Source: Campylobacteraceae bacterium
GTDB taxonomy: Bacteria; Campylobacterota; Campylobacteria; Campylobacterales; Sulfurovaceae
Direction: 5' to 3'
Length of the DNA stretch: 46,430 bases
Assembly (NCBI GenBank): GCA_027065045.1
Contig: JAMOOX010000058.1
Span: forward strand, 1-46,430
The notes under the pieces are model-generated. The model made no database searches. It saw only the letters and a program-made list of their open reading frames with translations, and was not told the DNA's origin. The position numbers and the translations under genes were made by a program. Below, piece by piece: positions 7,834 through 45,191 of the stretch; position 1 is the stretch's first letter, and the number at the start of each line of letters is the position of its first letter.

Positions 7834-9207
7834 ATGACTTCACACCCAAAATTTGCCGTAGTAGGACACCCAAACAAAGGTAAAAGTACAATTGTTTCAT
7901 CATTAGCATTAGATGATACTATTAATATATCTGATATTTCAGGGACTACCAAAGAGAGTCGTAGTTTTCCTCTTAAAGTTGATGGCAAGATAATATATGA
8001 ACTATTTGATACCCCTGGGTTTCAACGAGCTAAATCTCTTTTGGCTTGGCTAAATTCTCATACCGTATCTGCTCATCAAAAAGATATGATTGTAAATGAT
8101 TTTATAGAAGCTAATAAAACTAATCCTAAATATAGAGATGAGATAGAACTACTTACTCCTATTATGAATGGGGCTTCTATAATATATGTAGTAGATGGTT
8201 CTAAACCATATAGTAGTGAGTATGAGGCTCAAATGGAGATATTACGATGGACAACTCAACCATCTATGGCTTTGATAAATCTAATTGGTGATGATAACTT
8301 TGTAGATGAGTGGCAAAAGGCCTTGGGGCAGTATTTTAGAATGGTTAGAGTATATAATCCTCTTAATGCCAACTTTCAAACTCATCTTAATATCCTCAAA
8401 AGTATGTCTCATCTCAAAGAGGAGTGGATAGAACCTATGGAACACTCCATAGAGATTTTTACAAACTATCATCAACAAAAGATTGACTCTACTATTAATT
8501 TAATCACAGATACAATGGTAGATATATTAAGATTTAAAACAAGATATAAAATTGCCTCTAAAAAACCATCAAAAAATGAGATGGAGAGATTTTTAGAGGA
8601 TTATAAATCTCAAATTATATCAAAAGAGAGAGAATTTCAAAATAATATTAATAGAATATGGCATCATAATAATATTAATAAAGATAACTTTTTGATAGAA
8701 CTTAGCAATATAAATCTATTTTCACAAAAGAGTAAATCTATATTTGGATTAAATCAAAAAGAGATTATTAGTTCAGGAGTGATGGGTGGAGTATTAGCAG
8801 GTGGTGGGGTTGATATGCTACTTGGTGGTTCTACTCTATTAGTTGGTTCAATGGTTGGGGCTTTGGTTGGTGGAGTATCTGCTGTAATTGGGTTTAGTAA
8901 ATTAATAGATGTAGAGATATTAGGACAAAAAGTTGGTAAAATAGAGATTGTATTAGGAAATATCAAAGATATAAATTTCTCATTTATTCTACTATCAAGA
9001 GTTTTATATTATAGTAATATAATCTCATCACACTCACATGGAGTAAGAGATAAAATAGAACTTAAAGAGAACCTAAATATCTTTGATAAAGATAATAAAA
9101 AAGAGATAGAAAAATTACATAAAAAGATACAAAATAGAAGATTTCTAAGAGACGCTACAATAGAGAGATATAGAGAGATTATAAATATAGTTTTTAATAA
9201 TAGATAA
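7834..9207 (+). CDS. GTPase with DUF3482 domain
   Basis: This 457-aa protein has an Era/EngA-like G domain: P-loop GHPNKGKS (11-18), a switch region around SGTTKESRS, and G3 motif DTPG (59-62). The helical DUF3482 part follows, with a glycine-rich double membrane segment near residues 310-350 (GVMGGVLAGGGVDMLLGG). Such proteins normally sit next to a DUF2868 membrane protein; no such gene is next to it here. The role is unknown and membrane association is likely. No strong ribosome site precedes the ATG. Confidence 0.88.
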   Translation: MTSHPKFAVVGHPNKGKSTIVSSLALDDTINISDISGTTKESRSFPLKVDGKIIYELFDTPGFQRAKSLLAWLNSHTVSAHQKDMIVNDFIEANKTNPKYRDEIELLTPIMNGASIIYVVDGSKPYSSEYEAQMEILRWTTQPSMALINLIGDDNFVDEWQKALGQYFRMVRVYNPLNANFQTHLNILKSMSHLKEEWIEPMEHSIEIFTNYHQQKIDSTINLITDTMVDILRFKTRYKIASKKPSKNEMERFLEDYKSQIISKEREFQNNINRIWHHNNINKDNFLIELSNINLFSQKSKSIFGLNQKEIISSGVMGGVLAGGGVDMLLGGSTLLVGSMVGALVGGVSAVIGFSKLIDVEILGQKVGKIEIVLGNIKDINFSFILLSRVLYYSNIISSHSHGVRDKIELKENLNIFDKDNKKEIEKLHKKIQNRRFLRDATIERYREIINIVFNNR

Positions 9208-25653: not shown

Positions 25654-26282
25654 GAGAATTTAGCAAATTAGCAGTTTTTGATTTTGACTCTACTCTAATG
25701 GACGGAGAAACTATAGACTTTTTAGCCAAACCATTAGGATTAGAAGAGAAAGTAGCATCTATTACAGAGAGAGCAATGGCAGGAAAGCTTGACTTTTTTG
25801 ACTCTCTCTCTACAAGAGTAGCACTTTTAAAAGGGTTGAAGAAATCAGTAGTAGATGATATTTGTAGAGATTTACCATTAATGAATGGAGCAAAAGAGGT
25901 AATAGAGGGACTTAAAGCCAAAGGATATACGGTAGTATGTTTCTCTGGTGGATTTAGAAATGCCACCTCTCCTGCTTCAAAAGAGCTAGGAATTGATGCT
26001 GATTTTGCTAATATCTTACATGATGAAAATGGAATACTCACTGGAAAAGTAGGTGGCGATATGATGTTTTCAAGCTCAAAAGGAGATATGATAGTAAGAC
26101 TTCAAAACCTATTATCTATTGGAAGAGAAGATACACTTGTAGTTGGAGATGGAGCAAATGACCTTAGTATGTTTGCCCATGCAGATACAAGAGTAGCATT
26201 TTGTGCTAAACCTATACTTAAAGAGGCATCTACTAATATAGTAGATACCAAAGATTTAAGAGAGATTTTGAAGATTGTATAG
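25650..26282 (+). CDS. serB: Phosphoserine phosphatase
   Basis: This 210-aa HAD enzyme makes serine from phosphoserine. It has DFDSTLMDGE (catalytic Asp11 and Asp13), FSGGFRNAT (motif II), a Lys in SSSKGDM and GDGANDLSMF (motif IV). It lacks the N-terminal ACT domains of longer SerB proteins. The start is GTG, overlapping the pnp stop by four bases (GTGA), so it is translationally coupled. Confidence 0.93.
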   Translation: MREFSKLAVFDFDSTLMDGETIDFLAKPLGLEEKVASITERAMAGKLDFFDSLSTRVALLKGLKKSVVDDICRDLPLMNGAKEVIEGLKAKGYTVVCFSGGFRNATSPASKELGIDADFANILHDENGILTGKVGGDMMFSSSKGDMIVRLQNLLSIGREDTLVVGDGANDLSMFAHADTRVAFCAKPILKEASTNIVDTKDLREILKIV

Positions 26283-26517
26283 ATACAATGTAATTGAACT
26301 ATTTGCAGGTGCAGGTGGTTTAGCTTTGGGACTAGAACAAGCAGGGTTTAATACTAAAATTGCTGTTGAGATTAATAAATGGGCAGTTAAAACATTAAAA
26401 AAGAATAGACCAAATTGGAATGTTATACAAGAAGATATAACAAAAATTTCAGAGAATGGAATAAAAGACTATTTAAAAGATAATGAAGAGATAGACCTTT
26501 TTTCATTTCTTATCTAA
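26275..26517 (+). pseudogene. Truncated DNA (cytosine-5) methyltransferase, N-terminus only
   Basis: The 80 codons match the start of a C5-cytosine methyltransferase: YRYNVIELFAGAGGLALGLEQAGF is motif I with its AdoMet loop (read as VIELFAGAGG), then AVEINKWAVKTLKKNRP (motif II) and EDITKI. The frame breaks just after EEIDLF, where GGPPCQ-type motif IV with the catalytic Cys should come, and ends at a TAA. Nothing of the remaining 200 or more residues is visible downstream. It starts from TTG inside the end of serB. It is a broken gene, probably from a lost restriction-modification system. Confidence 0.87.
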
Positions 26518-28898: not shown

Positions 28899-29474
28899 TT
28901 AATCCATTGTTCGTGTATCAAATGATAGAGCAGAGAGTAGGGTAAAAAATACCATAATAGCAAATGCCGTTGATGCACTTCCTGCAATGATTTCTATATT
29001 ATCAATATGAACTAATGATGCTAAAATAGCTACTACAAATACATCAATCATAGACCATGGACCAATTATCTCTGTAATATAGAATATTCTATGTTTGCTA
29101 TGGTGGTCTTTATGACTATTTAACTTTGTAGATATTATTAAGTATATTAATAGAATAAACTTAATAATAGGTACAAATACAGATGCAAATAGAATAATTA
29201 ATGCAATACCATAAGAACCATTCTCATATATATGTATAATTCCCTCAATAATATTACTCTCTTGGCTTACTCCAAATTGAGTTACTATAAGCATAGGATA
29301 TATATTAGCAGGAATAAAAGCTATTATGGCCGTAGTTAAATATGCCGTTGTGAGGTTTAGACTATATTGTTTGTTTTTGTATATTTTTTTATGACATCTT
29401 CTACACTCTATCTCATCTCCTGTATCTATATTGACAGCTTCACACTTAGGGCATCGTATAAGCTTACTACTCAT
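28899..29474 (-). CDS. pqiA: PqiA-like protein, second half
   Basis: The protein of about 191 aa has a zinc ribbon (CPKCEAVNIDTGDEIECRRC at about 7-26) and then four membrane helices with the PqiA core (NIYPMLIV and GPWSMIDVFVVAILASLV). In many bacteria PqiA is one protein with two such modules; here the modules are separate genes. I start at MSSKLIRCP (29474), which has AGGG eight bases upstream and overlaps the first half by eight bases. Confidence 0.85.
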   Translation of the reverse strand: MSSKLIRCPKCEAVNIDTGDEIECRRCHKKIYKNKQYSLNLTTAYLTTAIIAFIPANIYPMLIVTQFGVSQESNIIEGIIHIYENGSYGIALIILFASVFVPIIKFILLIYLIISTKLNSHKDHHSKHRIFYITEIIGPWSMIDVFVVAILASLVHIDNIEIIAGSASTAFAIMVFFTLLSALSFDTRTMD

Positions 29475-30093
29475 TATAAGCCCTATCATACATCTGCCAT
29501 AAATTAAAAATCTTGATATGACTTGTAATATAAATCTCTAATAGTATAAAGATAAGTAGTGAATAAAATGATACATCAAATGATATATCAAATGAATTAG
29601 CTAATTTAACTAATGCCACAAGAATACTAATCAAAAATATATCCAACATATTCCAATGGCTAAGATTAGATATTAAGACTAATATCTCTCTAGCATACTC
29701 TGGATATATTTTCATTTTCAGTAATATAGCAATAGATATATATAAAGTTATAGATAAAAGAGGAATAATAAATATAAATAGTGCAATAAAGATACCCACA
29801 ATATAGTATTGCATATCAAAAAGACGAAAAAGCATAGATAAGATATTAAGCGATTCATAGCTATACATTATATCCATTTTGATAATAGTAAAAGAGTTTG
29901 CAAGAATAAAAAACATTATCGCAGATATACTAATAGCTAATAGTTTATCTAGCATTTTGCTATCAGTTTTTTTATATAGCATTGCATTACATCTATTACA
30001 GTGTGCTTGTGAGTGTGGTTTAAGTTCTATAATTGTATGAATTTCATTGCATTTATAACATATTACTAATTTATCTAAATCTTTATAATCTAT
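29467..30093 (-). CDS. pqiA: PqiA-like protein, first half, apparent ATA start
   Basis: From the first ATG (29982) this would be 171 aa and lack its zinc ribbon. The same frame stays open upstream and encodes the missing ribbon (CYKCNEIH at 30060 onward, then HCNRCNAM), which the family needs. No ATG, GTG or TTG lies between the upstream stop (30099-30097) and the ribbon. AGGAG (30105-30101) stands seven bases before an in-frame ATA (30093-30091), giving a 208-aa protein. Four membrane helices and SHWNMLDIFLISILVALV follow. The start lies inside the end of the HAD gene. Confidence 0.75.
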   Translation of the reverse strand: MDYKDLDKLVICYKCNEIHTIIELKPHSQAHCNRCNAMLYKKTDSKMLDKLLAISISAIMFFILANSFTIIKMDIMYSYESLNILSMLFRLFDMQYYIVGIFIALFIFIIPLLSITLYISIAILLKMKIYPEYAREILVLISNLSHWNMLDIFLISILVALVKLANSFDISFDVSFYSLLIFILLEIYITSHIKIFNLWQMYDRAYNE

Positions 30094-30700
30094 CTCTTAG
30101 CTCCTCTACACTCAAAATTGCACTCTTATCATCATCACTAAAGCCCCAATTTACCATCAAATAATCAATATTAGCACTCCTACTAGCCAATAAATCACGG
30201 CTACCATCTCCAATAAATATAGCATTCTCATTAGAGATATTAAGCTTATCTAAAATCTTAAATAGCATATCAGGGCTAGGTTTACTAGCCTCTACCTCAT
30301 CATGACATACAATAGCATCAAATAGATGAAAGATATTCAAAAATTTTAATGACTCAATAGTAGATATTTTATAAGCATTTGTAGCTAATGCCAACTTTTT
30401 ATTATGAGCTTTTATATCCTCTAGCATATCTTTGATACCATCATATACTATCAACTCTTTATGATGGTTTGCACTATAATAGCTATTAAACCACTCCTCA
30501 TGGATTGGTTCAAACTCTTCTATATTATAAAAGTGTTTAGCAGGGTTTAGAGTATGATTATTGACATCTTTTAATATATCTTCACTTCTCATAGGCTCTA
30601 AATGTAGCTTCCCCCTCACAAAATTAATAGCATTAGCTATGGTAATAGAACTATCTATCAAAGTCCCATCCATATCAAAAATATATAACTCCTTTTTTAT
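30083..30700 (-). CDS. HAD-family hydrolase, apparent ATA start
   Basis: This phosphoglycolate-phosphatase-like HAD protein has the nucleophile motif FDMDGTLID, LATNAYKIST (motif II), SKPSPDMLFK (motif III Lys) and FIGDGSRDLLAS (motif IV). The only ATG near the start (30673) lies within FDMDGT and would delete the catalytic Asp. The frame continues upstream as KKELYIFD without ATG, GTG or TTG. An AGGAG (30712-30708) lies seven bases before ATA at 30700-30698, which overlaps the psd stop. I therefore give ATA as the likely start (205 aa). Confidence 0.78.
   Translation of the reverse strand: MKKELYIFDMDGTLIDSSITIANAINFVRGKLHLEPMRSEDILKDVNNHTLNPAKHFYNIEEFEPIHEEWFNSYYSANHHKELIVYDGIKDMLEDIKAHNKKLALATNAYKISTIESLKFLNIFHLFDAIVCHDEVEASKPSPDMLFKILDKLNISNENAIFIGDGSRDLLASRSANIDYLMVNWGFSDDDKSAILSVEELRDRL
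30101..30105 (-). promoter_or_regulatory. Ribosome site for the first pqiA gene
   Basis: AGGAG on the minus strand, seven bases before the in-frame ATA at 30093. It also lies within HAD codons for VEEL, so chance cannot be excluded. Confidence 0.5.
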
Positions 30701-31512
30701 AATAATACTCCTATTCTTTCTCCAAATTTCACATTTTGTCCCTCTTTTACATCAGGAATAATAGCATCTTTTTGAGATAACATTACAATAGTTGAACCCA
30801 TCTTAAAATATCCAAAAAGCTCACTGATTTTGAGTTTCAAATCACTATACTCATAATATGACTCTTCGTGAAGTTTGATATTTATAGTGATATTCTCTTC
30901 AAATGATACCACCATCTGCCCCACATTCAAAGCCCCCACAAGAACCAAAAAGTGAATTTTATCTTTTCTATCTTTTACTTTAATTACCACTCTCTCATTT
31001 TCAATAAATAGATTTTTCTTTTTTGTGAGATAACGATTATTTACAGGATATAATTTCCCAGGTATATGAGTAATACTTAATACTTGTAAATCCATTGGAA
31101 TATGGTATCTATGATAATCTTTTGGAGATAGATAAAAGTTTATAAACTCTCCTCCCTCCAACATCTTATCATACCCCGTATATTGCTTACCCAAAAGTTC
31201 ATTAAGTCTATACTCCATACCCTTAATCTGATAAGCATAACCATCTTCTATCTTACCACAATCACTAATAAGTGCATCAACAGGTGATATTAGAGTATAT
31301 TTTGTATTTATTTTTCTAGGAGTTTTGAACTCTCTAATAAAAAGTTTGTTAAGTGTTTTATAACTATTTGGAGTATCAAATTCACTCATATTAAGCCCCA
31401 TTAACTTTACATAACCTGTATTAATAATACCTTGAATTGGTTTGGAGAACTCTCTATTGGCAAATTTACCAAAAACTTGTGATATATAAGAAGTGATGTG
31501 CTGTTTTGACAT
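30697..31512 (-). CDS. psd: Phosphatidylserine decarboxylase
   Basis: The 271-aa pro-enzyme makes phosphatidylethanolamine. Seen are FIREFK, SPVDALISDCG, the HRYHIP motif with the catalytic His, PVNNRYL, and near the C-terminus KMGSTIVML. The Gly-Ser bond in GST is where the chain self-cleaves to make the pyruvoyl group. It heads a run of membrane-lipid genes (HAD, pqiA, pqiB, pqiC). AAGG precedes the ATG. Confidence 0.96.
   Translation of the reverse strand: MSKQHITSYISQVFGKFANREFSKPIQGIINTGYVKLMGLNMSEFDTPNSYKTLNKLFIREFKTPRKINTKYTLISPVDALISDCGKIEDGYAYQIKGMEYRLNELLGKQYTGYDKMLEGGEFINFYLSPKDYHRYHIPMDLQVLSITHIPGKLYPVNNRYLTKKKNLFIENERVVIKVKDRKDKIHFLVLVGALNVGQMVVSFEENITINIKLHEESYYEYSDLKLKISELFGYFKMGSTIVMLSQKDAIIPDVKEGQNVKFGERIGVLL
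30708..30712 (-). promoter_or_regulatory. Ribosome site for the HAD hydrolase
   Basis: AGGAG on the minus strand, seven bases before the ATA start at 30700 that overlaps the psd stop codon. It lies inside the final psd codons. Confidence 0.55.
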
Positions 31513-43653: not shown

Positions 43654-43669
43654 TTGGTTAATATTTAAC
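43654..43669 (+). repeat. 16-bp direct repeat, left copy
   Basis: TTGGTTAATATTTAAC here is identical to 45237-45252. The copies flank the broken AAA/PD-(D/E)XK gene, and this copy overlaps its stop codon. Confidence 0.6.
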
Positions 43670-45191
43670 TTCTCTCCCACTCAAATTTAAATATATTTCT
43701 CTTCTCTTCATCAAAATTAATTCCAACTAAATATATCTCTTTACCACTATTTAGATATTTTTGATGATAATTTTTATCTTTGATTTGAGCTAAAGCATTA
43801 CTATCTCCTACTTTAAACTCTATTATATAGATATAGTTATTTAGCTTTATAGTCAAATCTATTCTGCCTTTATTTGTAACATCTTCACCGATAATATCAA
43901 GCCCTAAAGATTGTAAATATACATATATTACACTAGCATAAAAGCCCTCATAATACAATATATTATTACCTACAAAATTATTATATGGAATATTTGCAAA
44001 CATAGTTATTAAGGCACTTTTGAAATCTTCTAAATTACCACCTCTTAAGGCTTTGCTAATAAGCTTATTACTATTTGATTTATCTCTATATAAGTAGTGT
44101 ATAATAGATTGATTTAATGATTTTTTGACCTCAAAATTTGGTAATTTCAATCTATATATAATATCTTCATCCTCATCTATATACATCTCTTTGATTGTAA
44201 GATAACCTGCTTGATAAAGGATTACTTCTAAATCTAAATTATCTATATCAAAGCTATTTAATAGTTTTTTATTTACTGTTAAATTAGATAATTTTGGTAA
44301 AAAGTAGTTATTATCTTTAATTAGTTTAATCAAAAATATAGGTGTACCACTCTCAAACCAATAATTATCAAAAACTTTATCATTCTCAATAAATAGTAAA
44401 ATATCAAATGGATTATATAGATTATCTTTTAAAAAGTTATACCCATTATACCACTTCTTTAATCTATCTAAATCTACTCCATCTAAATATGGCAAAATGG
44501 TTGTCTCTATATCTTGTTGAGTATATCCACATATATTTCCATATTTTGGATTTAGAGATATATCTTGTATCATATTTAATCCACTAAATACAGAGGCTTT
44601 AGAAAACTTACTTACTCCTGTAAGAAGTGTAAATTTAATATATTTTTCCATTCCTTTTAATATAGTATATAGAGATTTAATTATCTCTCTATTTTCTATG
44701 GCTACTTCCATTTGGTCAAGATTATCTAATATTGCTTTATCATACTCATCTATTAATATTACTACCTTTTGGTTATATTTTTTAGAACTATTTTGAATTA
44801 ACTCTTTAAAACATACTCCAAAATTATCTATCTCATTACACTGGACATCTAATCTCTTTTGATTAAAATTGAGTATAGATAGGATTACTTTTTTTAGTTC
44901 ATTAGGGCTTCTTAAATCTCCAAAGAAGTCAATTTTAATGACAGGATATTTCTCTTCCCAATTCCACTTATCATAGATATATAATCCCTTAAATAGCTCT
45001 TTTTTACCATCAAATATATCTTGAAGAGTATCAAGAAATAGAGATTTCCCAAATCTTCGGGGGCGAGATAAAAAGTAAAATATAGACCCACTATTTATTA
45101 GTTCCTAAGCCTCTTTAGTTTTATCAATATATAGGTAATCCTCTTCTATTATTCTACTAAATGTCTGTATTCCTATTGGTAATTTTTTCAT
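43665..45191 (-). pseudogene. AAA-like ATPase/PD-(D/E)XK paralogue broken by an amber codon
   Basis: The frame opens at 45191 with GAGGA before MKKLPIGIQTFSRIIEED, then reaches an in-frame TAG at 45107-45105 (codon 29). The same frame runs on without a further stop through LSRPRRFGKS (P-loop), VVILIDEYDKAILDN (Walker B) and a C-terminal nuclease part with GRIDLTIKLNN and IIEFKVGDSNA, to 43665. In paralogues the residue at the stop is usually aromatic (Tyr), so a single base change explains it. It is about 508 codons long and otherwise intact. Recent inactivation or rare readthrough are both possible. Confidence 0.85.

Follow-up and report, generated by a model that had tools for sequence, protein, structure and literature searches.

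Putative AUA start codons in two adjacent genes of a Sulfurovaceae operon, with candidate AUA, AUU and AUC starts elsewhere in the genus

Two adjacent genes of a Sulfurovaceae bacterium, encoding a HAD-superfamily hydrolase and the first half of PqiA, lack a canonical start codon and are probably real genes in which an ancestral AUG has mutated to AUA. Comparison with homologous loci suggests that both AUA codons still function as weak starts, aided by a strong Shine-Dalgarno (SD) sequence and by translational coupling to the gene upstream. The stretch of DNA analysed (the window, 46,430 nucleotides) is contig C58 of a 2.06 Mb genome assembly in 164 contigs (G000), of which approximately 47% was examined; the part read has 28% G+C. 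The two genes lie on the minus strand between psd upstream and a second PqiA-domain gene downstream, the HAD gene first and pqiA next; beyond them is a larger gene that we take for pqiB/MCE. All four genes from psd to the second PqiA-domain gene have Pfam matches.

The gene psd (30697-31512, minus strand, from the open reading frame list) encodes phosphatidylserine decarboxylase (Pfam PS_Dcarbxylase, E=1.5e-56) and ends with TAA at 30699-30697. The HAD gene that follows (30083-30700, minus strand) encodes 205 residues if counted from ATA, and its product matches the HAD_2 profile (PF13419, E=6.2e-42) over all of its positions, 1-178 of 178. The match begins three residues before the nucleophile and includes the DxDGT nucleophile motif, so it needs the frame upstream of the first ATG (30673-30671). 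The first-pass annotation held that a start at this ATG would cut off the nucleophile, and indeed GAT (30674-30676, minus strand), the codon for the catalytic Asp of DMDGT, precedes it. The frame begins after a stop and reads TGA (30754-30752) TGT AAA AGA GGG ACA AAA TGT GAA ATT TGG AGA AAG AAT, then AGG AGT ATT ATT ATA AAA AAG GAG TTA TAT ATT TTT GAT ATG GAT GGG ACT. As had been claimed, it is open and free of ATG, GTG and TTG from TGA 30754 to ATG 30673. An AGGAG (30708-30712, minus strand) ends 7 nt before the proposed AUA start (30698-30700, minus strand), which shares 2 nt with the psd stop codon as ATAA (30700-30697); both features had been described in that annotation and both can be read in the sequence. 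Its span of 30083-30712 retains the end at 30083, while the useful start is 30700 and not 30712. The other in-frame non-AUG candidates are ATT 30706 and ATT 30703, which lie 1 and 4 nt from the SD, respectively. The HAD product shares 60% identity with its counterpart in the congeneric genome G001, equal to the 59.5% found for Psd, and so gives no sign of decay.

Homologues of the HAD gene were collected from 29 relatives within the order and 9 more in a named collection. The relatives found in that collection mostly bear the name Sulfurovum sp., which puts G000 in the Sulfurovum line of Campylobacterota. All 38 of the 38 have ATG, GTG or TTG 5-14 codons before the HAD motif. In one of them, G027 (L005), each codon of TAG-ATG-AAA-AAA-GAG from the ATG on has its counterpart in the window's ATA-AAA-AAG-GAG, placing an ATG exactly on the proposed AUA start; in relatives without this type of match, the start lies a few codons away from the ATA. 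The upstream frame, with its KKELYIFD lead-in, aligns with the homologues, and two of the checks proposed in the first-pass annotation, homologue alignment and inspection of sister loci, came out in favour of its reading.

The gene pqiA (29467-30093, minus strand, from the open reading frame list; Pfam PqiA, E=1.2e-29) encodes a zinc ribbon followed by a PqiA domain. Its first canonical start, ATG 29982, lies inside the zinc ribbon. The proposed AUA start (30091-30093, minus strand) falls in the 3'-terminal part of the HAD gene, beginning 8 nt ahead of the HAD stop codon (30085-30083), and an in-frame TAA (30099-30097) precedes it. Its AGGAG (30101-30105, minus strand) again ends 7 nt before the ATA, bearing out the earlier remark that the two genes share this spacing. 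ATA GAT of the window corresponds to ATG GAT in all four congeners (G001-G004), at the same distance to a conserved Leu-Asp. This correspondence, together with the HAD alignment, lends sequence-based support to the first-pass proposal of genuine AUA initiation. The two PqiA halves (28899-30093, minus strand) are separate genes in G000 and G002-G004, and form one 406-residue frame in G001 (L101).

SD strength was taken as the duplex energy with the anti-SD, assumed to be CACCUCCUU (the usual bacterial 3' end) rather than read from G000, and was ranked against 278 canonical starts validated by orthologues. The HAD and pqiA sites fall in the 84th and 94th percentiles, and other candidate ATA starts described below in the 97th (sensor kinase), 83rd (DUF374) and 92nd (flippase), with 76 for the cytochrome-like gene, 63 for tsaD and 33 for DUF234; these percentiles are biased upward, since the SD helped to find several of the cases. 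HAD and pqiA were themselves picked out by their missing start, though the AGGAG had also been seen at first reading. Pairing as strong as theirs occurs at 3.0% (HAD) and 1.6% (pqiA) of random window positions. The distance from AGGAG to ATG in G000 peaks at 5-6 nt, with 26, 32, 10 and 12 cases at 5, 6, 7 and 8 nt and 4 cases at 4 nt.

We propose that the strong SD 7 nt upstream would place AUA in the ribosomal P site, where initiator fMet-tRNA could pair with its A and U. Two things may make the third-position C-A mismatch tolerable: the SD anchors the mRNA, and ribosomes come in from the upstream stop. In both genes the start overlaps the upstream stop or lies within a few nucleotides of it, as in translationally coupled pairs. 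Coupling at the psd/HAD junction is suggested by the overlap of the ATA with the psd stop: ribosomes ending psd would stop on the overlapping UAA and could reinitiate at the AUA, and those ending the HAD gene would likewise traverse the pqiA start. At the psd/HAD junction, one G-to-A change in an ancestral ATGA may have produced TAA and ATA together while both genes were kept. For HAD and pqiA alike, the likely outcome would be a yield of HAD and PqiA below that of Psd. An SD is known to improve reinitiation, and loss of ribosome recycling factor leads to non-canonical initiation after a stop (PMC2268962). In vitro, weak pairing at the third position is disfavoured by IF3 (PMC10158994). It counts against the proposed change that, among 61,358 ancestral AUG starts, one was found to have switched to AUU and none to AUA (PMC5622118). 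Switches from AUG to AUA would be hidden in such published reconstructions, since annotations seldom admit these starts.

The true codons could instead both be ATG, with two G-to-A errors in the consensus. Both ATA codons are unique to this one assembly and every relative has a canonical start; moreover, the dnaE gene of the same assembly has an apparent one-base frameshift, so the assembly may carry errors. Error would nevertheless require two independent substitutions, precisely at starts 607 bp apart, with the surrounding frames intact, and the change at the HAD start also falls in a stop codon, which stays a stop. AUA or AUC starts kept in five congeneric assemblies further indicate that the phenomenon exists without need of error, and we consider this explanation unlikely. 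Loss of the start codons could also have silenced the two genes, leaving young pseudogenes: loss of AUG normally abolishes most translation, and the two affected genes are adjacent in one operon, as if the operon were dispensable. This appears highly improbable given that neither frame is interrupted and both give strong family matches, their SDs are stronger than those at most canonical starts, and the genes downstream keep normal starts.

Two further explanations concern the HAD gene. AUU is a documented rare start codon (infC, pcnB), and HAD translation might begin at the in-frame AUU 30703 (or 30706) and not at AUA; ATT does occupy the equivalent place in other genes, such as an endonuclease gene of G001. 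The SD spacing would then be 4 or 1 nt, against the peak of 5-6 nt for ATG starts in G000, and the pqiA start has no ATT, only ATA at a spacing of 7, which leaves the AUU start with a small chance, if a slightly better one than silencing. Relative to psd the HAD frame is -1, and it continues open through the psd stop, so HAD could also be made as a C-terminal extension of Psd by -1 frameshifting at that stop. We give this almost no credence: TTA TTA TAA is not a slippery heptamer, the HAD genes of relatives begin with a canonical codon of their own, and pqiA equally lacks a start yet stands in another frame relation. Weak initiation at AUA remains the preferred reading for both genes, and a likely one.

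AUA appears to be a rare start in G000 and not a general one, as judged from orthologue pairs and from SD-anchored codon counts. Between G000 and G001, of which 967 and 644 kb were read, 298 of 327 orthologue pairs agree in the aligned position of a canonical start, and HAD and pqiA are the clear cases (2 of the 327) with a start in G001 and none in G000. The reverse comparison (316 pairs) revealed a G001 gene of endonuclease/exonuclease type whose ATT falls on the very codon that is ATG in G000; it also showed that G001 has a PabC-like gene without a canonical start. In SD-anchored codon counts over 756 kb, ATG is strongly enriched and ATA is at background, and an altered, genome-wide AUA start code was rejected on these counts. 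With a looser SD (967 kb and 644 kb), AUA, AUU and AUC together are not enriched (p=0.22 in G000, p=0.73 in G001). A coding-potential scan for missing starts proved too insensitive for short N-termini and was dominated by gene fragments, and an unfiltered census of ATAA overlaps was too noisy, so a filtered version was used. The tRNA-Met gene in L047 has, by eye, the usual GGG:CCC anticodon stem; a motif search of the fetched part of the genome did not find IF3, and a search of the literature for AUA starts in Campylobacterota found nothing relevant.

Further candidates came from screening for frames that have no canonical start and stay open through an upstream stop, followed by homologue alignment. 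In none of the five congeners does a DUF374 acyltransferase gene (L034:11592, on C4 of G000; L241-L244) have a canonical start. After the end of a MiaB-like gene it has ATA in G000 and G001 and ATC in G002, G003 and G004, in every case seven bases past (A)GGAG; the first GTG or TTG in G002-G004 is eight codons further on, already within the conserved region. Cases such as this, common to several assemblies, are not sequencing errors. A sensor histidine kinase gene (L035:4005; L200-L202) that overlaps its response regulator gene has no canonical start in four genomes from three genera, where G000 and G001 carry ATA, and G010 and G022 carry ATC; in most relatives a TTG stands two codons further on. 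Because the overlapping regulator gene in part fixes the AT of this codon, its conservation alone is not proof. A DUF234 gene (L032:10389-11297; L225; L227), preceded by a promoter-like TATAAT, has no canonical start in any of G000, G001 and G038, where it probably begins with ATT or ATC. In G000 and G001 a cytochrome-like gene is also devoid of a canonical start. A polysaccharide flippase gene (L046:283) has an ATAA overlap with the gene upstream and AAGGAG before the ATA, and its Pfam match begins upstream of the first canonical start.

The tsaD gene of G001 (L104:5185-6195, on C1 of G001), a gene essential for t6A tRNA modification, has AAGGA-N6-ATA followed by the conserved ILSIESSCD. The next canonical start is 89 codons on, and no gene overlap was seen. 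A pattern search of 175 family genomes found AGGA-N4-9 followed by ATG, GTG or TTG ahead of that conserved motif in 38, and followed by ATA, ATT or ATC in G001 only. Two candidates were discarded: L078 +1486, where a nearby ATG is a reasonable start, and C7 -53701, which is not a start and represents dnaE after its frameshift. That dnaE gene (G000 C7, ~57906 to 53000, minus strand; L052) has an intein-like insertion, GRGC-LTKDTLVYT...TTNYIVHN-SAAGS, and the apparent one-base frameshift is near its 3' end. In G001, a kinase-receiver hybrid (L124, minus strand, near 8013) changes frame at an A9 run and is thereby split in two, through slippage or a sequencing indel.

AUA initiation gains plausibility in this lineage from the independent cases in the genus, and we propose that AUA, AUU and AUC starts occur here at a raised rate. 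A broader reading, in which initiation in this Sulfurovaceae genus tolerates any third base after AU and perhaps 0.5-1% of genes start with AUA, AUU or AUC, is more doubtful. On this reading some of these starts (DUF374, sensor kinase, DUF234) would be conserved across the genus, one would belong to the essential tsaD, and several would be coupled starts that overlap a stop. If it is true, the likely cause would be a relaxed initiation check at the level of IF3, the ribosome or recycling. Were such initiation common, the lineage would offer a natural system for studying the evolution of start-codon checking by IF3, and for asking whether coupled termination and reinitiation relaxes that checking. 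The usual gene finders take only ATG, GTG and TTG, so genes with AUA starts are either clipped, as the HAD gene would be with loss of a catalytic residue, or missed altogether, and start-codon statistics based on annotation are blind to them.

Two other genes in the window appear incomplete at one end. In an AAA-ATPase/PD-DExK gene (43665-45104, minus strand), the frame opens behind a stop at a point matching position 27 of the ATPase profile, and no canonical start occurs for 131 codons; the gene is probably a 5'-truncated pseudogene. An 80-residue N-terminal piece of a C5 cytosine methyltransferase (26275-26517, plus strand) is an apparent gene remnant.

The candidate starts of HAD and pqiA resemble the AUU starts of bacterial infC and pcnB in being AUG codons changed at the third position that would serve as weak starts. 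The AUU codons of infC and pcnB are conserved regulatory starts, whereas the AUA codons of HAD and pqiA represent changes specific to one species, in genes of an ordinary kind. Bacterial AUA starts have been described before, and what is new here is their recurrence within a genus and the stop-overlapping AUAA arrangement. In Staphylococcus aureus, infC, ccpN and citZ have AUA starts with long SDs, as part of a pattern in which both AUA and AUU starts carry extended SDs; the AUA starts were mapped by retapamulin ribosome profiling, and ccpN and citZ were tested in reporters (PMC13009471). Non-canonical starts in that organism give approximately 10% of AUG expression, and up to 30% for ccpN in rich medium (PMC13009471). 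HAD and pqiA share with infC, ccpN and citZ an AUA start (putative in HAD and pqiA), strong SD pairing at a suitable spacing, a tendency to be missed in annotation and, presumably, weak expression. Unlike the S. aureus starts, theirs are predicted from sequence, and the HAD start overlaps the upstream stop as AUAA while that of pqiA lies within the upstream gene. In this respect they resemble the coupled pairs joined by ATGA or TAATG (PMC2268962), in which the upstream stop overlaps the next start, the SD lies inside the upstream gene and reinitiation is expected; the difference is that the start in the overlap is AUA, by which ATGA becomes ATAA.
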